DNA from: a virus
Direction: 5' to 3' (one strand)
DNA length: 29,054 bases
Virus record (IMG/VR): IMGVR_UViG_3300033388_002352
Span: 1-29,054 of that record
In this document: piece by piece, positions 2,393 to 24,475 of the stretch
Numbering within the stretch: the first letter of the stretch is position 1
Layout: the number at the start of each line of letters is the position of its first letter
Position numbers and translations under genes: made by a program
Notes under the pieces: generated by a model
The model's input: only the letters and a program-made list of their open reading frames with translations
Databases searched by the model: none
What the model was told of the DNA's origin: nothing

Positions 2393-2428
2393 TTGCTTTA
2401 TTGTATGTTGTATGGTAGGATAAGTCAA
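2393..2428. promoter_or_regulatory. Overlapping divergent promoters with a shared operator-like motif
   Basis: On the minus strand, TTGACT (2428-2423), a 17-bp spacer and TACAAT (2405-2400) form a near-consensus sigma70-type promoter for the leftward operon. On the plus strand, TTGCTT (2393-2398), 17 bp and TAGGAT (2416-2421) form a weaker promoter for the recombination operon. The two footprints overlap almost completely, so RNA polymerase could occupy only one at a time. The motif ACCATACAA lies inside both, at 2416-2408 on the minus strand, and recurs at 4730, 5156 and 5254. A repressor bound there would block both directions. Confidence 0.6.
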
Positions 2429-4729: not shown

Positions 4730-4738
4730 ACCATACAA
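4730..4738 (+). promoter_or_regulatory. ACCATACAA operator-like motif upstream of the VRR-NUC gene
   Basis: Exact 9-mer copy of the motif found at 2416-2408 (minus strand) and 5254-5262 (plus strand). It lies just upstream of the VRR-NUC start, where a promoter would be expected, although no convincing -35/-10 pair is visible here. A nearby imperfect palindrome, ACCAC and GTGGT at 4766-4784, may be related. The call rests on repetition and position. Confidence 0.4.
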
Positions 4739-4926: not shown

Positions 4927-5160
4927 CTATTCCAGCCATTCACCTACATCCATGCCCTGCTCAGCAAGGCGGCCTATCAATGCAAGCCGGACAAACTCGG
5001 TAATTGTCCCACCCCTATAGGCGCACTCGGAGTCTTGTTTCGCCATGAGTTTTACAGCCTCTTTTAACCTCGGCTCCAGTAATGCGCTAACGTGCGCAAG
5101 TTCACTCTGTCTCTTTATCCATCTTGTATATGCGTTTTCTTCCATACAGTATGATACCAT
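4927..5160 (-). CDS. Ribbon-helix-helix (CopG/Arc-type) DNA-binding regulator
   Basis: The 77-aa product fits the ribbon-helix-helix fold: a short strand (HVSALLEP, residues 24-31), helix 1 (RLKEAVKLMAKQ), a longer loop with SECAYRGG, and helix 2 (TITEFVRLALIGRLAEQG). Such proteins bind DNA as dimers, inserting the paired strands into the major groove of short repeats. The start at 5160 has only a weak AAGG 10 nt upstream; MEENAY at 5145 is an alternative. Half-sites CATAC, GTATG and CATAC (5143-5162) overlap its start codon, suggesting autoregulation. The same ACCATACA word lies in the promoters at 2393-2428 and 5249-5277. Confidence 0.7.
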   Translation of the reverse strand: MVSYCMEENAYTRWIKRQSELAHVSALLEPRLKEAVKLMAKQDSECAYRGGTITEFVRLALIGRLAEQGMDVGEWLE

Positions 5161-5163
5161 ACA
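5143..5163. promoter_or_regulatory. CATAC/GTATG half-site cluster at the RHH gene start
   Basis: Three alternating half-sites, CATAC (5143-5147), GTATG (5149-5153) and CATAC (5158-5162), span the first codons of the RHH gene, and ACCATACA is at 5156-5163. Closely spaced half-sites are typical RHH operators. A further inverted repeat, ACTAC and GTAGT (5181-5201), lies just upstream near a possible minus-strand -10 (TATACA). Overlap of the operator with the coding start is consistent with autorepression. Confidence 0.45.
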
Positions 5164-5248
5164 TTTTCAGCCTTGTAAACACTACATATTTGTATAGTAG
5201 TTATTTTTAAAAAAAGTGCGAATTCGGGGAAATAACTACAACATTTTC

Positions 5249-5277
5249 TTGCTACCATACAATATCCGTGGTACACT
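5249..5277 (+). promoter_or_regulatory. Promoter with operator-like motif for the small-gene operon
   Basis: TTGCTA (5249-5254), a 17-bp spacer and TACACT (5272-5277) form a plausible promoter 31 bp ahead of the 5309 start. ACCATACAA (5254-5262) begins at the end of the -35 box, and TACCA (5253-5257) pairs with TGGTA (5269-5273) as an inverted repeat across the promoter. The layout mirrors 2393-2428, where the same motif overlaps the promoter core. Confidence 0.5.
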
Positions 5278-5308
5278 GATATTAGGTTAAAGATAAGGAG
5301 TTTACAGG

Positions 5309-6543: not shown

Positions 6544-6749
6544 ATATTAACATATTAGACATGACGCAGACTGATGTACACACCGCAAACGCCGGGAAAA
6601 TTTACTCGTTCCCTTCTGGAATGACTATACGGTTTTCTAATATGAAAGAGCATGAATTTCAACTATGGAATGAAATTATAGTGGCGTACTTAGAACAAGA
6701 ACTATCAGAGATAAAAGAGAAAGAGGATGCGCTATATGAAAAAAATTAG
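6540..6749 (+). CDS. Hypothetical protein (69 aa)
   Basis: It starts in an ATGA overlap with the previous stop, with AGGAAGGGG nearby. The N-terminal half is beta-like (NAGKIYSFPSGMTIRF) and the C-terminal half is a charged helix (LEQELSEIKEKEDALYEKN) likely to form a coiled coil. It overlaps the next gene, a possible RHH protein, by 14 bp. Function unknown. Confidence 0.65.
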   Translation: MNINILDMTQTDVHTANAGKIYSFPSGMTIRFSNMKEHEFQLWNEIIVAYLEQELSEIKEKEDALYEKN

Positions 6750-6915
6750 ATTCAGCGTAACTGATGATCAGTTCAGGATAATCCAGTTTGAAGCACAGGC
6801 GAAAGGATTAAAACATTCAGCATTTGCAAAGATGACAGTTTTCAACTATATAGCAAAATACCCCTGTAAGGGATTATTAAAAGATTTCCAGGCATGGATT
6901 GAATCGAACAAGTAG
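6736..6915 (+). CDS. Second ribbon-helix-helix-like small protein (59 aa)
   Basis: ATG at 6736 is preferred to 6727 because AGAGG is 9 nt upstream of it. The N-terminus has the RHH plan: strand KKIRFSVTDDQ, helix FRIIQFEAQAKG, turn with LKHSA, and helix FAKMTVFNYIAKYP. This is the same fold predicted for the 4927 gene, though the sequences are not close. It could be a transcription regulator for the operon or a partner of the other RHH protein. The C-terminal tail (LLKDFQAWIESNK) is a further helix. Confidence 0.55.
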   Translation: MKKIRFSVTDDQFRIIQFEAQAKGLKHSAFAKMTVFNYIAKYPCKGLLKDFQAWIESNK

Positions 6916-6972: not shown

Positions 6973-7179
6973 ATGACATACGACGATCTAAAAACAGTAT
7001 TTACAAGATTCGGGGATAATGAGCTATCACGGGGTGAATTGATTTGTGCCATCGGGTATTGGCAGATGAAAGAAACGCCTTTTCTATTGGCTGAATTGCC
7101 GAAACATAATTACCTGGTTAAGATAATTATTGCGCAGCCTGATGCAGAACCAGATATGTTATCACGCCTCCGGCTATAA
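6973..7179 (+). CDS. Hypothetical protein (68 aa), last gene of the rightward operon
   Basis: AGGAGG precedes the ATG. The product is soluble with a helical N-terminus (TYDDLKTVFTRFGDNELS) and a hydrophobic second half (YLVKIIIAQP). It converges with the leftward lysis genes: its last 53 bp are antisense to the C-terminal membrane segment of the 7127-7564 frame, and its stop lies 8 bp from that of the 7188-7571 frame. No terminator is visible between the two transcription units. Function unknown. Confidence 0.6.
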   Translation: MTYDDLKTVFTRFGDNELSRGELICAIGYWQMKETPFLLAELPKHNYLVKIIIAQPDAEPDMLSRLRL

Positions 7180-7564
7180 AAGACAGGCTACTGAATAAAA
7201 TTACTTGCTGCGTTTTCTGCGTGTTCAAGTTCTTCAAGTCCGTCGATAATTGACTCAATAAGTCCGAGAGTGTCTGTGTCTCCGAGGAGGCCTGCTCTAA
7301 TGAGTTCTGCTGCTCTGAGATTGTGATCTCGTGCTTCAGAACTGTATTTTGTAATAAGATTATTTTCTCGCCTGAGTTCTGTATTTCGATCAATGCTGAT
7401 TCGTAGTTCTTCTGCGATTCTATATGATTGCTCCTGAGCTGCATCAACATTGCCTTTAAACCTGCGTATTGAGATTTGCCCTTGTCCGATTGCAACGCCT
7501 GAGCATATGAGAAGGACAGACAGCACAGCAATAATAATAATACAAATCCTAATTTTCTTTTCAT
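7127..7564 (-). CDS. Spanin-like exported coiled-coil protein with C-terminal membrane helix (overlapping frame)
   Basis: The 145-aa frame has a clear secretion signal (MKRKLGFVLLLLLCC, possible cleavage after SYA at 19-21, or lipidation at C14/C15 although the lipobox is poor), a long periplasmic coiled coil (residues about 45-115, Q-, L- and E-rich), and a C-terminal membrane helix (VILFSSLSFIAGGVITYLVL). This topology resembles unimolecular spanins, which join inner and outer membranes in the last step of lysis. It overlaps most of the 7188-7571 frame, shifted by one base. A GAGG lies 9 nt before its ATG. Its last 61 bp extend beyond the other frame, so that membrane helix is not a by-product of it. 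Confidence 0.55.
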   Translation of the reverse strand: MKRKLGFVLLLLLCCLSFSYAQALQSDKGKSQYAGLKAMLMQLRSNHIESQKNYESALIEIQNSGEKIILLQNTVLKHEITISEQQNSLEQASSETQTLSDLLSQLSTDLKNLNTQKTQQVILFSSLSFIAGGVITYLVLHQAAQ

Positions 7565-7571
7565 CTGTCAC
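7188..7571 (-). CDS. Inner-membrane Rz-like (i-spanin-like) protein (overlapping frame)
   Basis: The 127-aa frame starts with GTG in a GTGA overlap with the endolysin stop and has GAGG 7 nt upstream. It has a short cytoplasmic N-terminus (MTDEKKIR), one membrane helix (residues about 9-28, IIIIAVLSVLLICSGVAIG), then a charged helical domain. That plan and its place directly after the endolysin match Rz-type inner-membrane spanin subunits. In lambda and many other phages the partner Rz1 is encoded in an overlapping frame, as may be the case here. Either frame alone could be the true gene; position and coupling slightly favour this one. Confidence 0.6.
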   Translation of the reverse strand: MTDEKKIRICIIIIAVLSVLLICSGVAIGQGQISIRRFKGNVDAAQEQSYRIAEELRISIDRNTELRRENNLITKYSSEARDHNLRAAELIRAGLLGDTDTLGLIESIIDGLEELEHAENAASNFIQ

Positions 7572-8194
7572 GCCCTCACCTCGAAAAATAATATGTCTTT
7601 CATGTCTGCGTAGAAAGCAGAGTCGGAGTTCTTGCCATCTACTATTCTGACACCGTCCCGGCCGTTACTTCCCTTGTTTGCACAGTACAATCTGCCGTCT
7701 GTTCCGTATCCGATAATCGGTGCTACGTGGTATTGTTTGTAGTTCCCGGCGATGATTACAGAGCCATCTTTTACAAGCGACCCCTTGTTACAATATGACG
7801 GTGGATGCTCGCTGACTTTCACGCCGTCCGCTGTCATGAGATAATCCATCAGCTTGATTGCACCAAGTGGCTTTTCCCATACTGCCCGTTCAATATCTTT
7901 ACGCCCAAGAAATCCGAAACAGGTTGCTACGTTATAATTGCAATATGTTTCTGAGTTCGGATTATGAACAAGTTTTACCTGTGGCGGCATAGCTCGATAA
8001 TCAACATAACATTCTATTGATTGTTTATAATTATAATTTCCGGGAAATGGTTCATTCTTTCTGTTGCCTTTGCTGACAGCCTGAAGGTATGCAAATCTAT
8101 TCTGCCCTGTATGTACGTCTTTCCAATAATCTTTGAACCATTTCGGAACATTAAATATTTGCGTTTCGTCGTTTGATAATATGACGTTTGACAT
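7568..8194 (-). CDS. Endolysin-like cysteine peptidase/amidase
   Basis: The 208-aa protein lies between the holin-like and spanin-like genes, the usual place of an endolysin. It has a papain/NlpC-CHAP-like arrangement: candidate nucleophile C85 in TYCNYNVATCF at the start of a helix, H156 in YHVAPIIGYG on a strand, and N173 in YCANKG as the third residue. The N-terminal 80 residues (with PKWFKDYWKDVH) show no known wall-binding repeats. There is no signal peptide, so release through a holin is expected. AAGGA precedes the start, and TAATG couples it to the holin gene. The family assignment is by pattern only; another lysozyme-unrelated peptidase is possible. Confidence 0.65.
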   Translation of the reverse strand: MSNVILSNDETQIFNVPKWFKDYWKDVHTGQNRFAYLQAVSKGNRKNEPFPGNYNYKQSIECYVDYRAMPPQVKLVHNPNSETYCNYNVATCFGFLGRKDIERAVWEKPLGAIKLMDYLMTADGVKVSEHPPSYCNKGSLVKDGSVIIAGNYKQYHVAPIIGYGTDGRLYCANKGSNGRDGVRIVDGKNSDSAFYADMKDILFFEVRA

Positions 8195-8376
8195 TATTCA
8201 GTTTCCTTTTTTCCGAACTTGGAAAGGATAGCCTCCGCAACATTACCGCCGATAAAGATACCGGTTAATACAAGCCAATGGATAGCGTCAAGCTTGTCAG
8301 TGAAAATAAATATTGCAGTCCCTATTGTGTAGGCTAGAAACTTACGACTGCTGATTCTGGATAGAAAACTTTTCAT
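8194..8376 (-). CDS. Holin-like two-helix membrane protein (60 aa)
   Basis: The start at ATG 8376 is chosen over GTG 8379 because AAGGGG is then 5 nt upstream, with a TGATG junction to the previous stop. Two hydrophobic helices are visible (FLAYTIGTAIFIF and IHWLVLTGIFIGG), separated by a short DKLD turn, with a basic N-terminus and charged C-terminus. Size, topology and the place between an XhlA-like protein and an endolysin fit a small class II holin that opens the inner membrane for the endolysin. Confidence 0.7.
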   Translation of the reverse strand: MKSFLSRISSRKFLAYTIGTAIFIFTDKLDAIHWLVLTGIFIGGNVAEAILSKFGKKETE

Positions 8377-8699
8377 CACAGCCCCTTTGATATAAAATAT
8401 GTTGTGACGAAAACAAGCACGGCAGTTATCACGCCGGTAATAATATTTTGCTTAACACCGCTTGATTGCTTGATGGTATCATTCAATACCTTAACCTGAT
8501 TCTCAAGTGTTGTTACCCGTGGATAGATTGCCCGGAAGTCGTCACGGAATTCTGAATCCTTATTTTCAAGATTACATACTCGCCTGTCTACACTCTCAAA
8601 ATCTTTTTGAAACAATTCTTTAAGCCCGACGATTTCTGTCCGGATGGTATCAATCAACGCCGTGATAAAACTTTTGTCTTGCTCTGTCATGTGTTCCAT
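8376..8699 (-). CDS. XhlA-like coiled-coil membrane protein (107 aa)
   Basis: The protein is an N-terminal amphipathic helix and coiled coil (VDRRVCNLENKDSEF, RVTTLENQVKVLNDTIKQ) followed by one C-terminal membrane helix (NIITGVITAVLVFVTTYFI, residues about 85-103). This is the plan of XhlA (hemolysin) family proteins, which assist holins in Bacillus and other phages. It is the first gene of the lysis cassette, downstream of its own promoter. ATG at 8699 is used; ATG at 8690 is an alternative that fits GAGGA equally well. A hairpin can cover the upstream GAGG. Confidence 0.7.
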   Translation of the reverse strand: MEHMTEQDKSFITALIDTIRTEIVGLKELFQKDFESVDRRVCNLENKDSEFRDDFRAIYPRVTTLENQVKVLNDTIKQSSGVKQNIITGVITAVLVFVTTYFISKGL

Positions 8700-8704
8700 T
8701 CCTC

Positions 8705-8736
8705 ACACCTCGCTAATAATACTATACAAGCGGTGT
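8705..8736 (-). promoter_or_regulatory. Leader hairpin that can sequester the lysis ribosome site
   Basis: In the mRNA, ACACCGC (8736-8730) can pair with GCGAGGTGT (8713-8705) with one bulged A and a 16-nt loop. The 3' arm contains GAGGTG, the likely Shine-Dalgarno sequence of the XhlA-like gene. An alternative hairpin, ATACAA with TTGTAT, shares part of the loop. This could delay lysis translation. Confidence 0.4.
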
Positions 8737-8743
8737 TTTGTAT

Positions 8744-8771
8744 ATTATACACTACTATTCACCGTTGTCAT
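8744..8771 (-). promoter_or_regulatory. Lysis cassette promoter
   Basis: ATGACA (8771-8766), a 16-bp spacer and a consensus TATAAT (8749-8744) lie on the minus strand between the membrane-HTH gene and the XhlA-like gene. Five of six bases match at -35 and all six at -10. The cassette can therefore be expressed separately from the tail genes upstream. Confidence 0.55.
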
Positions 8772-8809
8772 TATAAAGCCTTGATATACCAGATAATGCC
8801 ATTGCATAA

Positions 8810-9469
8810 TCATTGGCTTTCACTCGCTGAGTATAACTTTAGTTTTAGATTATCTTTGTATAATGATATTAATTGGTATGTGGTTTTAGCTTTGTATTCT
8901 TTTCTCATTCGTTGCAATTGTTTATTAACCTGGTTGTGGCTGATGCGTAACTCATACGCTATTTCTTTCGGCAGTTTCCCACGCATAAGCTTTTCCATGA
9001 CCTCAACATCTTCAATCTTTCTGACTACCTGAAGCTTAACCTTTTTCTTATCAAGAATGGTAAAGAATATAACCGCTGTTATGATATACCCAACGCCCAA
9101 AGTAATGACCGTTGAAATATCCATATCAATCAAGATGCCTTTTACAAGCACCTCGCACAAGGTAATGATGTAAATAATTATTTTTAAATCAGGATTAACA
9201 ATTAGCTGTACGGCAAAGCACATATACACCACGCCGCCAACATCGCCGAACCCATTCAAGAAAGTCATGATAGCGCTTAGTAATAGAAAGATAATTATCA
9301 AGGGTGTTTTCCATCTGTTGAATACCAGGAAAATTCCGATAGCTGCAAACGGGATAATGTTTGTAACCCAAAATATATCAGCCCGGCTTTCAAGACATAG
9401 CTTTACAATGTTAAATAATGATAGAGCAAAACAACTTGTGTATCCAACCCGGTTTAATTGTTCCACCAT
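8810..9469 (-). CDS. Multi-pass membrane protein with C-terminal LuxR/HTH-like DNA-binding domain
   Basis: The 219-aa protein has about five or six hydrophobic segments (residues about 10-26, 32-50, 56-72, 78-92, 95-114, 120-139), then a cytoplasmic basic linker (DKKKVKLQVVRK) and a helix-turn-helix region at 152-205: VMEKLMRGKLPKEIAYELRI, then SHNQVNKQLQRMRKEY. This resembles the LuxR/sigma-4 type HTH used by response regulators. No known ligand domain is seen. GAGGT precedes the start by 9 nt, and it overlaps the previous gene by 16 bp. It lies directly upstream of the lysis promoter, so membrane state or a signal might control lysis or late transcription. Function is inferred. Confidence 0.75.
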   Translation of the reverse strand: MVEQLNRVGYTSCFALSLFNIVKLCLESRADIFWVTNIIPFAAIGIFLVFNRWKTPLIIIFLLLSAIMTFLNGFGDVGGVVYMCFAVQLIVNPDLKIIIYIITLCEVLVKGILIDMDISTVITLGVGYIITAVIFFTILDKKKVKLQVVRKIEDVEVMEKLMRGKLPKEIAYELRISHNQVNKQLQRMRKEYKAKTTYQLISLYKDNLKLKLYSASESQ

Positions 9470-9753
9470 GTAGATGATACCTCGGCATCAATATATTCTG
9501 CCTTGATTTCTGATTCAAGTTCTTTCTGTTCAGCCGTGGTGTCTTCACCGTGGGCTTGTTCCCGATGTATCGCACAAAGTAAAGCGCCGTACTTGATGAC
9601 CTGTTCCGTTGCCGCCTTGACTCCTGCTGATGCTCGATCTTCATTGTCAACGAAGTAATCAGCGTTCAAATACTCAGCCTCTTCCTGTTCTCTGTCAATG
9701 ACAATCTGTAATTCTTTCTGAAAAATACTTGCCATCTTTTCTGATAAGTTCAT
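9454..9753 (-). CDS. Hypothetical helical acidic protein (99 aa)
   Basis: AAGGAG precedes the ATG. The protein is acidic and mostly helical (KMASIFQKELQIVIDREQEE, AEQKELESEIKAEY) with no membrane segment. It follows the fibre-type protein gene with 1 bp between and precedes the membrane-HTH gene. It might be a fibre chaperone or small virion component by position, but no family is recognised. Confidence 0.65.
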   Translation of the reverse strand: MNLSEKMASIFQKELQIVIDREQEEAEYLNADYFVDNEDRASAGVKAATEQVIKYGALLCAIHREQAHGEDTTAEQKELESEIKAEYIDAEVSSTWWNN

Positions 9754-9754
9754 C

Positions 9755-10258
9755 TTATCTCCTTTTAGTAACTACTTTCAAATAGCCTGCTGTTTTTGGG
9801 TCTACCCCTCCGGCAGTTGTCAACAACATTAAACCTGTTGCGCCTGTTTGCAGCGTGAAACTGTTAGTATCAATGTTTTTAAGTTCTATGCCATATGTTT
9901 CCGGTGTAGCGGAAAAGTAAAAGGATACATTCATATCAGTTATATCCCGTGCATCTGTATCTGCCCCTGTTGCTGAAAAGTAAACTGTCGCTTCTAACCC
10001 TGTTATGTTGTATCCAAGGTTGTGTGTAATAGTTGCAGTAACATTTTTTAACGCATTTGCTCCTGAATAATCAAGCCATGCAGACACGAAAGGGACAGGA
10101 TTCATGTATGCCAAATCATTCCACGCAGTTGTCCCGTCTCCAATTTTCCATAGACTTGTATCGGTTTCAAATGCCGGTTCACCTGCAAGCAAAGTGTCAT
10201 TTGCACTTGTGAAATCCCCTGCTGTATCTCGTTTCCATTGCTGTCTGTATAGTGCCAT
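9755..10258 (-). CDS. Tail fibre/receptor-binding-type protein with Mtd-like N-terminal repeat
   Basis: The open frame extends to 10369, but GGAGG 6 nt ahead of ATG 10258 and the stop of the upstream gene at 10260 fix the start. The 167-aa product begins with the motif common in phage tail fibres and major-tropism-determinant N-termini: QWKRDTAGDFTSANDTLLAG, EPAFETDTSLWKIGDGTTAW. The C-terminal half is beta-rich (residues 70-160) with Thr and Ala. It is probably a short receptor-binding or fibre-tip protein attached to the tail hub encoded just upstream. Confidence 0.75.
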   Translation of the reverse strand: MALYRQQWKRDTAGDFTSANDTLLAGEPAFETDTSLWKIGDGTTAWNDLAYMNPVPFVSAWLDYSGANALKNVTATITHNLGYNITGLEATVYFSATGADTDARDITDMNVSFYFSATPETYGIELKNIDTNSFTLQTGATGLMLLTTAGGVDPKTAGYLKVVTKRR

Positions 10259-10259
10259 T

Positions 10260-12143
10260 CTATCCTCCGTAATCCACAATCGCCGCCGTGGTGCTGTTGA
10301 AATCAAATATGTCTGTCGTGCTGTCTCCGTTGAAATCATGCACATAGGTAAAATCGGTAAGCACTTCAAACGCCCTTAACACAAGGCGCAATCTTCCATT
10401 CCTAATGTCCGGGATTGATTCCAACACCTCACACTTTAATTTCCCTAACCATGATGTCCCGTTTGTGTGATCAAGTTCAATCTGCACATTCTGCCCAATC
10501 TCAGGCTCTATGAACTCAAGCCGAACCGTCCCGGTTATTATATCACGTACTGCGTCAGATTTATTCATTATGTCCTGTGCAAATAATAATGCATCAGCAC
10601 TGTCTGTGTATAGCGTTTCGAATTCTTTGCTTCTGTTGGTGTCATACGTCCCCTTAACCGCAGCCTCTTTGCTGTCGTCAATCTCTCGGAGCCATAGCCC
10701 TGATGAAACATCTTGATCATATTTTACGCCAGCTTTTGAAATAACCTGATCAGCGTCATTGTCAAGCCGTGGGTCGTCAAGCCAATCATCGGTTTTTATT
10801 GTGGCTATTGGCAGGTTGTCAGCGTCAAATGTTCTCCATGTTAACAGCCCGTCAGGCTGTCTCAAAAATCCTGCTGCGCTTGTCTGCGCCAATTCTTCAA
10901 GTACTGAAATAACCGTTGTCGTCCCGTCTATAATTGCAACCCCGATGTTGTCGCTTGCTTTTGTCTGTTCAATTGTCCACTCGGCAGTATTAAAATTATT
11001 ACCCGTGTATGAAATGCTGGCAAAGTTTTCTAAAAGATGTTGCGCAATATCAAGTTGATTATCTATCAATACGGCGGAGCCGTCCACTATGCCGCCTCCG
11101 GTGTATGTGACTTCTTGCCCGGGGTCATAATCTGCAACCGCTAAAGCAAATAATCCAGTACTCCCGTCCGGCGCAGTGCTTGGCGTAACCGCAGCCCCAT
11201 CTACTTTTATCACAGCACCGGATACATAATAATCATATACTGAAGCGTCAGCAAATAGAAAAGCGTAGGTACTCGGTGAGCCTGTCTGCTCTTCCTGCAG
11301 GCTGATACATTTTACACCTGTTACCATTCCATAAAGAATTGGCGCAGGGGTAGACAATGCGTAATCATCAGCATCTGTATATACGGTTCCATCTATATAG
11401 TTGTTTGCGATTGTATTAGACAGAGCCTTTCTTGAATCCCGGATACTTAACGCCCATGTTCCGCTGCTCTGAAACGCTGATTTTATTACACGCCCTTCAT
11501 ATATCTTTTCAAAATATTCAAACGCTAAATCTTTTGTGCCTAAATAATAGTCTGCCGTACTGCCGAATAAGTTAGACCCCTTTCTATCATCATATGAATA
11601 ATCTGAGTTGTCGATATTCTGAACAAAACTATCAAACTGCATCTGCTGAAAAAAGATGGGGTCTTTCCGCTGTGGAAATTGTGGAGTGTTTTCTAAATCA
11701 GGTGAATAGTTTACCCCGTTTACATAATCATAATATTTGTTATCTGACAATCCAAGTACAGCCCCGATATTGATATCATAAATCAGCGGCGGATTATACA
11801 GGGCATCAAATCTCGCATAGATAATATCATTCACATCATCATATATAAAACTTGCGGCTGTTGCTAACGCTGTCGCTCTGCCGTCAATTGTATTTGTGTA
11901 GCTTGTAACCTCGGTTAAATCAGTCCCGTCTACAGTTACGGAATTAACAGATACTACCGGCAATGTCGGGGCGCCGTCTGTCAGATCTGTGTCAAAGTCA
12001 GAATAAGTCCCGCGCAAATCATACATCCAAATACCGGCAGAATCCACAAGCCAAAATGTTTGAGTTTGCCGTATGCCTACTTGTAAAGCTATTACAGGGT
12101 GTTGAGTTTTTAATGCTGTTAGCAGGGTGCTATTAAATGCCAT
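10260..12143 (-). CDS. Tail hub/tip structural protein with C-terminal EF-hand-like loop
   Basis: The 627-aa protein lies between the distal-tail genes and the fibre gene, the place of a siphovirus tail hub. It begins MAFNSTLLTALKTQHPVIAL and has a beta-rich body, with GFLRQPDGLLTWRTFD near residue 430 and a region ending EPEIGQNVQIEL, which resembles hub domains of phage baseplate proteins. The last 25 residues contain DFNGDSTTDIFD (603-614), a complete D-x-N-x-D-x-T-x-D-x-x-D calcium loop like half a dockerin. AGGA precedes the start. The structural role is likely; the exact family is not assigned. Confidence 0.7.
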   Translation of the reverse strand: MAFNSTLLTALKTQHPVIALQVGIRQTQTFWLVDSAGIWMYDLRGTYSDFDTDLTDGAPTLPVVSVNSVTVDGTDLTEVTSYTNTIDGRATALATAASFIYDDVNDIIYARFDALYNPPLIYDINIGAVLGLSDNKYYDYVNGVNYSPDLENTPQFPQRKDPIFFQQMQFDSFVQNIDNSDYSYDDRKGSNLFGSTADYYLGTKDLAFEYFEKIYEGRVIKSAFQSSGTWALSIRDSRKALSNTIANNYIDGTVYTDADDYALSTPAPILYGMVTGVKCISLQEEQTGSPSTYAFLFADASVYDYYVSGAVIKVDGAAVTPSTAPDGSTGLFALAVADYDPGQEVTYTGGGIVDGSAVLIDNQLDIAQHLLENFASISYTGNNFNTAEWTIEQTKASDNIGVAIIDGTTTVISVLEELAQTSAAGFLRQPDGLLTWRTFDADNLPIATIKTDDWLDDPRLDNDADQVISKAGVKYDQDVSSGLWLREIDDSKEAAVKGTYDTNRSKEFETLYTDSADALLFAQDIMNKSDAVRDIITGTVRLEFIEPEIGQNVQIELDHTNGTSWLGKLKCEVLESIPDIRNGRLRLVLRAFEVLTDFTYVHDFNGDSTTDIFDFNSTTAAIVDYGG

Positions 12144-24389: not shown

Positions 24390-24444
24390 TGTATTTCTCC
24401 CCGGTCACGCTCTGCCCGACCACGATAATATAAATGTCTTTCTA

Positions 24445-24475
24445 TAGTGTATACACACTATATAGTGTTTGTCAA
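24445..24475 (-). promoter_or_regulatory. Consensus promoter with overlapping palindromic operator before the head genes
   Basis: On the minus strand TTGACA (24475-24470) is a perfect -35; TATACA (24453-24448, 16-bp spacer) or TACACT (24451-24446, 18-bp spacer) serves as -10. Across it lie three half-sites: TAGTGT (24445-24450), ACACTA (24455-24460) and TAGTGT (24463-24468). These give the 14-bp perfect palindrome ACACTATATAGTGT and a second inverted repeat with a 4-bp gap. The -35 overlaps the stop codon of the MuF gene. This looks like a regulated promoter for scaffold, capsid and tail genes. Confidence 0.65.

Follow-up and report, generated by a model that had tools for sequence, protein, structure and literature searches.

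A phage gene for a predicted six-helix membrane protein with a LuxR-type DNA-binding domain, located next to a lysis cassette

What could be the role of a multi-pass membrane protein with a DNA-binding domain encoded between the tail and lysis genes of a phage? This question is raised by gene 8810–9469 (minus strand), coding for a protein of 219 aa in an IMG/VR virus record of 29,054 bases, the whole of which was analyzed and is referred to below as the window. The preliminary description of this locus proposed a membrane-anchored regulator that may sense the state of the membrane, superinfection or a small molecule and time lysis or late transcription. This interpretation is partly supported by the present analysis, which revealed a multi-pass membrane protein with a LuxR-type helix-turn-helix (HTH) encoded directly upstream of a promoter-bearing lysis cassette.

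Genomic Context of the Membrane-HTH Gene

Reading frames run off both ends of the record, so the window is a fragment of an uncultured phage genome, and lysogeny genes may lie outside it; no integrase was seen in the fragment, both ends of which are open. The minus strand carries the structural set of a tailed phage (Terminase_3, SPP1-type portal, Mu F, SU10-type capsid and tape measure), while the early genes, including ERF and YqaJ, are located on the plus strand. The closest relatives of this phage are uncultured phages and one contig in a Melioribacter MAG.

Gene 8810–9469 is located between the tail genes and the lysis genes and is the last one in the tail operon. Profile matches identified a tail fiber gene with an Mtd_N domain (9755–10369, minus strand), followed by a gene for a 99 aa protein (9454–9753, minus strand) that overlaps the start of the membrane-HTH gene by 16 bp; translational coupling of the latter two genes via this overlap is likely. 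The membrane-HTH gene has an ATG start with an SD-like GAGG upstream and an intact frame of 219 codons, and the codon usage of this region suits this frame only. Directly upstream of the gene no promoter-like site scored above 9/12. Given that the gene closes the tail operon and overlaps the one before it, its product is probably made late. A promoter-like sequence, TTGATA-18-CATAAT at 8781–8810 (plus strand), reads antisense into the gene.

The lysis cassette (7127–8699, minus strand) begins with a gene for a 107 aa protein comprising a coiled coil and a C-terminal transmembrane (TM) segment (8376–8699), with a weak similarity to XhlA/haemolysin (phrog_937, E 0.001). It is followed by genes for a 61 aa holin-like membrane protein of no confident family (8194–8379) and a probable endolysin of 208 aa (7568–8194), to which this role is assigned by position; searches of Pfam, PHROG, NCBIfam and phages by tblastn gave no match for the latter. 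Two overlapping frames (7188–7571 and 7127–7564) with N-terminal hydrophobic segments, located at 7127–7571, resemble Rz/Rz1 spanins, which suggests a Gram-negative host. The overlap of these frames is nearly complete, and codon usage slightly prefers 7188–7571.

Membrane Part and Predicted Topology

The order of elements given in the preliminary description, about six hydrophobic segments followed by a basic linker and an HTH, was confirmed, with six membrane segments indicated by hydropathy, AF2 helices and the charge pattern. The membrane part comprises residues 8–139 (9053–9448, minus strand), with hydrophobic segments at approximately 8–26, 32–50, 55–73, 77–92, 95–113, and 119–139, the first of them being the weakest. 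The AF2 model contains helices at residues 2–27, 32–50, 56–71, 78–91, 95–112, and 118–141, although the whole-protein model is of low confidence (pLDDT 51). The loops assigned to the inside, NRWK and DKKKVK, contain lysine and arginine, while the outside loops carry aspartate or glutamate. This pattern fits a predicted N-in/C-in topology. The outside loops consist of only 3–5 residues and, therefore, the protein has no periplasmic sensor domain. The last membrane helix is followed by a basic linker, DKKKVKLQVVRKIE, which was recognized by its charges (residues 140–153; 9011–9052, minus strand) and is predicted to be cytoplasmic. The N-terminal part had no Pfam match at E <= 1, and a fold search with the low-confidence whole-protein model produced nothing usable for this region.

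LuxR/GerE-Type HTH Domain

The C-terminal part of the protein contains an HTH of the LuxR/GerE type (residues 155–202; 8864–9007, minus strand), the fourth helix of which extends to about residue 213. It was detected by the PF00196 (GerE) profile with 24.3 bits, barely above the Pfam cut-off of 23.5, and with 26.4 bits in a second search. The C-terminal 77 aa (residues 143–219) modeled alone form four helices with a core pLDDT of 80–88. Among the matches listed in a Foldseek search of the PDB with this model, 50 of 50 were LuxR/NarL/GerE-type proteins (probability 0.97–1.00), most of them superposed with an rmsd of 0.7–1.4 A over about 50 residues; for TraR, RhlR, SdiA, and GerE the values were 0.7–1.1 A. 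The E-values were weak (0.03–0.4), which is normal for a domain of 50 residues. The top match was VqmA of a phage (PDB 7dwm). The domain also retains the KEIAxxLxIS--V pattern, and its nearest readable sequence match outside this phage, a soluble LuxR-type protein, is 41% identical over 51 residues.

The HTH assignment of the preliminary description thus held in the structural models. Of its label "LuxR/sigma-4-like," the LuxR-like part agrees with both PF00196 and Foldseek, while the sigma-4-like part is unneeded. The protein bears a genuine LuxR-type DNA-binding domain.

Homolog Searches and Related Phages

No homologs of the protein, either host or phage, were found in the searches described below, a result that speaks neither for nor against 8810–9469 being an ordinary host gene. 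Searches of IMG/VR and GTDB genomes with 8-mer peptide patterns revealed no close relatives, and tblastn against phages and plasmids, with E-values as high as 10 allowed, produced HTH-only or chance matches, none covering 80% of the query. About 1,360 sampled genomes of five taxon groups contained no homolog among the matches read, which comprised all but two low-scoring matches of the first group and loci L187 and L214; with a single diverged query such empty results carry little weight. Thirteen related phage records read whole and the Melioribacter MAG also contained no homolog, with the window serving as the positive control. Consequently, there is no conservation that would support the coupling of the membrane part to the HTH or a particular target.

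Several matches were considered and rejected. Stomatin/SPFH proteins, which have one N-terminal membrane segment and a Band 7 domain, were matched in single genomes only (E 4e-3 to 2e-6) and were aligned over the membrane helices and the HTH, and Pfam found no Band 7 domain in the protein; a PDB sequence match to stomatin (E 0.42) was discounted likewise. A soluble LuxR protein in the genome sample was rejected as a homolog, as were the GerE matches in related phages, which are small soluble HTH proteins, some of them sigma-like or probable small terminases. When one host class was surveyed with GerE, matches were numerous, the majority in frames of response-regulator size.

Syntenic but distant phages were gathered through terminase-based and tail-protein-based searches. 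None of these syntenic relatives was found to have the gene beside its lysis genes. In six of them (L189, L194, L219, L220, L221, and L223) the slot past the tail tip holds tail fibers and either proteins with one or two TM segments or no such protein, some of these stretches being short or ended by a contig edge. Because these six relatives have no such gene past the tail tip, the gene is dispensable in its phage group. One of the loci examined (L002, 2065–4209) contains a 714 aa frame for the terminase large subunit with an intein-like insert after the DKHNHC motif.

Comparison With Known Regulators

DadR, a LuxR protein with 12 TM helices, activates transcription as a transmembrane regulator, as evidenced by gene deletion and complementation (PMC9734109), and the principle of a multi-TM LuxR regulator is therefore established. 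Like the protein 8810–9469, the DadR, HcdR, and CadR proteins of Coriobacteriia consist of an N-terminal multi-pass membrane domain and a C-terminal PF00196 HTH, but they contain 10–12 TM helices, whereas here six helices are accommodated in about 140 residues (PMC9734109). DadR-type genes adjoin that of a metabolic enzyme (PMC9734109), while 8810–9469 is a phage gene located between tail and lysis genes, with no sequence kinship shown. More generally, transmembrane regulators (TTRs) with one or more TM segments are common in bacteria (PMC10269533). As in TTRs, a recognizable DNA-binding domain and at least one TM region are present here in the same protein, with no separate kinase, and regulation from the membrane is predicted; however, 56% of known TTRs are single-pass (PMC10269533), while this protein is multi-pass and phage-borne. 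Phages are not mentioned in the text of the TTR survey (PMC10269533).

Phage genes for proteins with a LuxR-type HTH are known in ARM81ld and Apop (PMC6456758) and in phage VP882, whose VqmA (PDB 7dwm) activates lysis once bound to DPO. These receptors have a ligand-binding N-terminal domain. The protein 8810–9469 shares with LuxR quorum-sensing receptors the C-terminal HTH, but instead of an autoinducer-binding or PAS domain it has membrane helices, and no ligand domain was found. Another LuxR-type HTH protein, NVP1198B_45 of Vibrio phage 1.198.B, is encoded near the tail end, five genes from a putative endolysin (D-Ala-D-Ala carboxypeptidase). It is only about 106 aa long with no annotated membrane part, and its similarity to 8810–9469 is limited to 48 residues (33%, E 0.1). 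In this locus (L224, 3486–3806) and in a group of Vibrio phages, a small LuxR-HTH protein is encoded near the endolysin and TM-helix genes.

Other families could be rejected. The N-terminal part has no receiver domain match of the kind expected for a NarL-type response regulator. A phage holin has 1–3 TM segments and no DNA-binding domain, while this protein has six and an HTH, and separate holin-like genes follow. Membrane-anchored one-component regulation is also characteristic of ToxR, CadC, and TcpP, which have an N-terminal winged HTH, mostly one TM segment and a periplasmic domain. Here the HTH is C-terminal and LuxR-type, and there are six TM segments with outside loops of 3–5 residues, which excludes the ToxR/CadC family.

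Most likely, this is an architecture of multi-pass LuxR regulators known from bacteria (the DadR family and the TTR survey) and found here in no other phage. Known phage LuxR-type regulators have soluble ligand-binding domains, and the LuxR proteins known to span the membrane several times come from bacteria. With about even confidence, we propose that 8810–9469 encodes a phage-borne transmembrane one-component LuxR-type transcription regulator that would be made late and act with no periplasmic sensor. The six short-looped helices would keep the HTH close to the cytoplasmic membrane on its inner side. Because a periplasmic domain is absent, the input, if any, would come from within the membrane: the state of its lipids, its potential, a lipophilic molecule, or other membrane proteins acting as partners, for instance the holin. 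The output could be the binding of a putative dimer to phage (or host) promoters. If functional, a six-TM LuxR protein of a phage, encoded next to a lysis cassette, would link the membrane directly to the expression of phage genes.

Lysis Promoter and Candidate Binding Sites

The strong lysis promoter noted earlier just past the gene was found again as the sigma70-like site ATGACA-16-TATAAT (8744–8771, minus strand), scoring 11/12 and separated by 38 bp from the stop codon of 8810–9469. This is the best such site in its part of the window, directed into the lysis cassette, and one of two 11/12 sites in the window, along with 19384 (plus strand). No terminator-like site was found on the minus strand from gene 8810–9469 to this promoter, and read-through from the tail operon into the lysis genes is therefore possible.

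From the -10 element to about +19 this promoter is overlapped by an operator-like dyad, ATACTATACAA-8-TTGTATATTAT (8719–8748), the score of which was matched in 5 of 300 shuffles of its intergenic stretch. Both arms are copies of the motif TTGTATRGTAG with 1–2 mismatches, and the copy at 8729 (minus strand) is the fourth-best match in the window. Eight of the 17 occurrences of TTGTATR in the window are intergenic, although intergenic DNA makes up 5.4% of it (binomial 1e-6), and TTGTATRGTAG has three exact copies, all intergenic, versus 0.03 expected; the motif was chosen after viewing the data, so these statistics exaggerate its strength, while the placement on promoter elements is separate support. 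With one mismatch allowed, there are four copies, all four intergenic and on or near promoter elements. In the ERF-operon region, the copies TTGTATG-TTGTATGGTAG (2401–2418, plus strand) lie within the spacer and -10 element of the minus-strand promoter TTGACT-17-TACAAT (2428–2400). The early divergent region 5161–5308 contains TTGTATAGTAG (5190–5200, plus strand) and a second TTGTATGGTAG (5252–5262, minus strand), the latter overlapping a plus-strand promoter-like sequence TTGCTA-17-TACACT. Weaker copies are located at 4738, 8762, and 5164, all on the minus strand.

The motif resembles an operator recognized by a repressor that acts across the phage genome. Since the half-site of the lysis dyad is common to two early promoter regions, it points to such a repressor rather than to a lysis-specific membrane sensor, and it need not be the site of the protein 8810–9469. 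Accordingly, a small soluble phage repressor could bind the motif at the lysis promoter as well as in the ERF-operon and early divergent regions, the membrane-HTH gene being an independent cargo, and we give this explanation slightly less than even confidence. One candidate repressor, a 77 aa protein (4927–5160, minus strand), is encoded next to the best operator pair, 5190/5262, and appears ribbon-helix-helix-like, but this is seen by eye only; it has no family match, and its PDB matches are at chance level. The other, a 62 aa protein (6727–6915, plus strand), weakly matches the ribbon-helix-helix protein NikA (E 0.0086). The number and placement of the motif copies, including both arms of the lysis dyad, favor this explanation. 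On the other hand, the lysis copies are imperfect, none of the related loci retrieved contains the motif, and the membrane protein could be the binder instead. A small soluble repressor is at least as likely as 8810–9469 to bind the lysis dyad.

It is unlikely, by comparison, that the membrane-HTH protein is itself a lysis timer, repressing the promoter via the dyad 8719–8748 and releasing it once the membrane part is reshaped by accumulating holin, a collapse of membrane potential or a lipophilic signal. The gene immediately adjoins the region's strongest promoter-like site, the dyad is located where a repressor would need it, and input from within the membrane would be consistent with the lack of an outside domain. 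However, the half-site centers of a LuxR-type dimer are usually about 10 bp apart, and the 19 bp observed here is a poor fit. Moreover, the same half-site occurs at early promoters, no terminator stops read-through from the tail operon, and the relatives manage without this gene.

LuxR-type dimers normally recognize contiguous dyads of 18–20 bp. The window contains only one contiguous LuxR-box-like dyad, the 20-bp TATAGTGTATACACACTATA (24443–24462), located inside the structural operon on the -10 element of the minus-strand promoter TTGACA-18-TACACT (24475–24446); a dyad of this type was present in 6 of 1,000 shuffles of its stretch. For an HTH of the LuxR type it would be more suitable than the lysis dyad, and it is a candidate site, a lead obtained post hoc. 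For the proposed transmembrane regulator the likeliest targets would be, in order, the 24443–24462 dyad, the lysis promoter, and a host promoter. The operator motif and the LuxR-box-like dyad represent exact candidate DNA targets, which makes the control of the lysis promoter testable.

Alternative Roles of the Gene

These readings are not mutually exclusive, and the confidences attached to them do not sum to one. The end of a late operon is a usual place for cargo genes, and 8810–9469 occupies such a position. It could be a lysogenic-conversion (moron) gene, reprogramming host transcription from the membrane when a signal arrives from the host or the environment, with no connection to phage timing; we regard this as improbable, to the same degree as the lysis timer. 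Its absence from all related phage records searched and the common occurrence of bacterial transmembrane regulators with one or more TM segments (PMC10269533) are consistent with such a role, while the lack of its own promoter above 9/12 directly upstream, of an integrase in the open-ended fragment and of a host homolog argues against it.

An unlikely version of the transmembrane regulator is a membrane-embedded phage transcription factor that would read the state of the membrane (holin load, potential or lipids) and feed back on late or lysis promoters, a lysis clock working through transcription and lacking a periplasmic sensor.

Finally, the LuxR likeness could be accidental, the protein being a common multi-pass membrane protein whose tail is helical, such as one that assists lysis or excludes superinfecting phages. 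This would agree with the marginal GerE score, and a 6-TM protein encoded near holins could act as an antiholin or in exclusion. It is very unlikely, however, given that the domain alone matches dozens of LuxR-type structures, most of them within 1.5 A, and retains the KEIAxxLxIS--V pattern.
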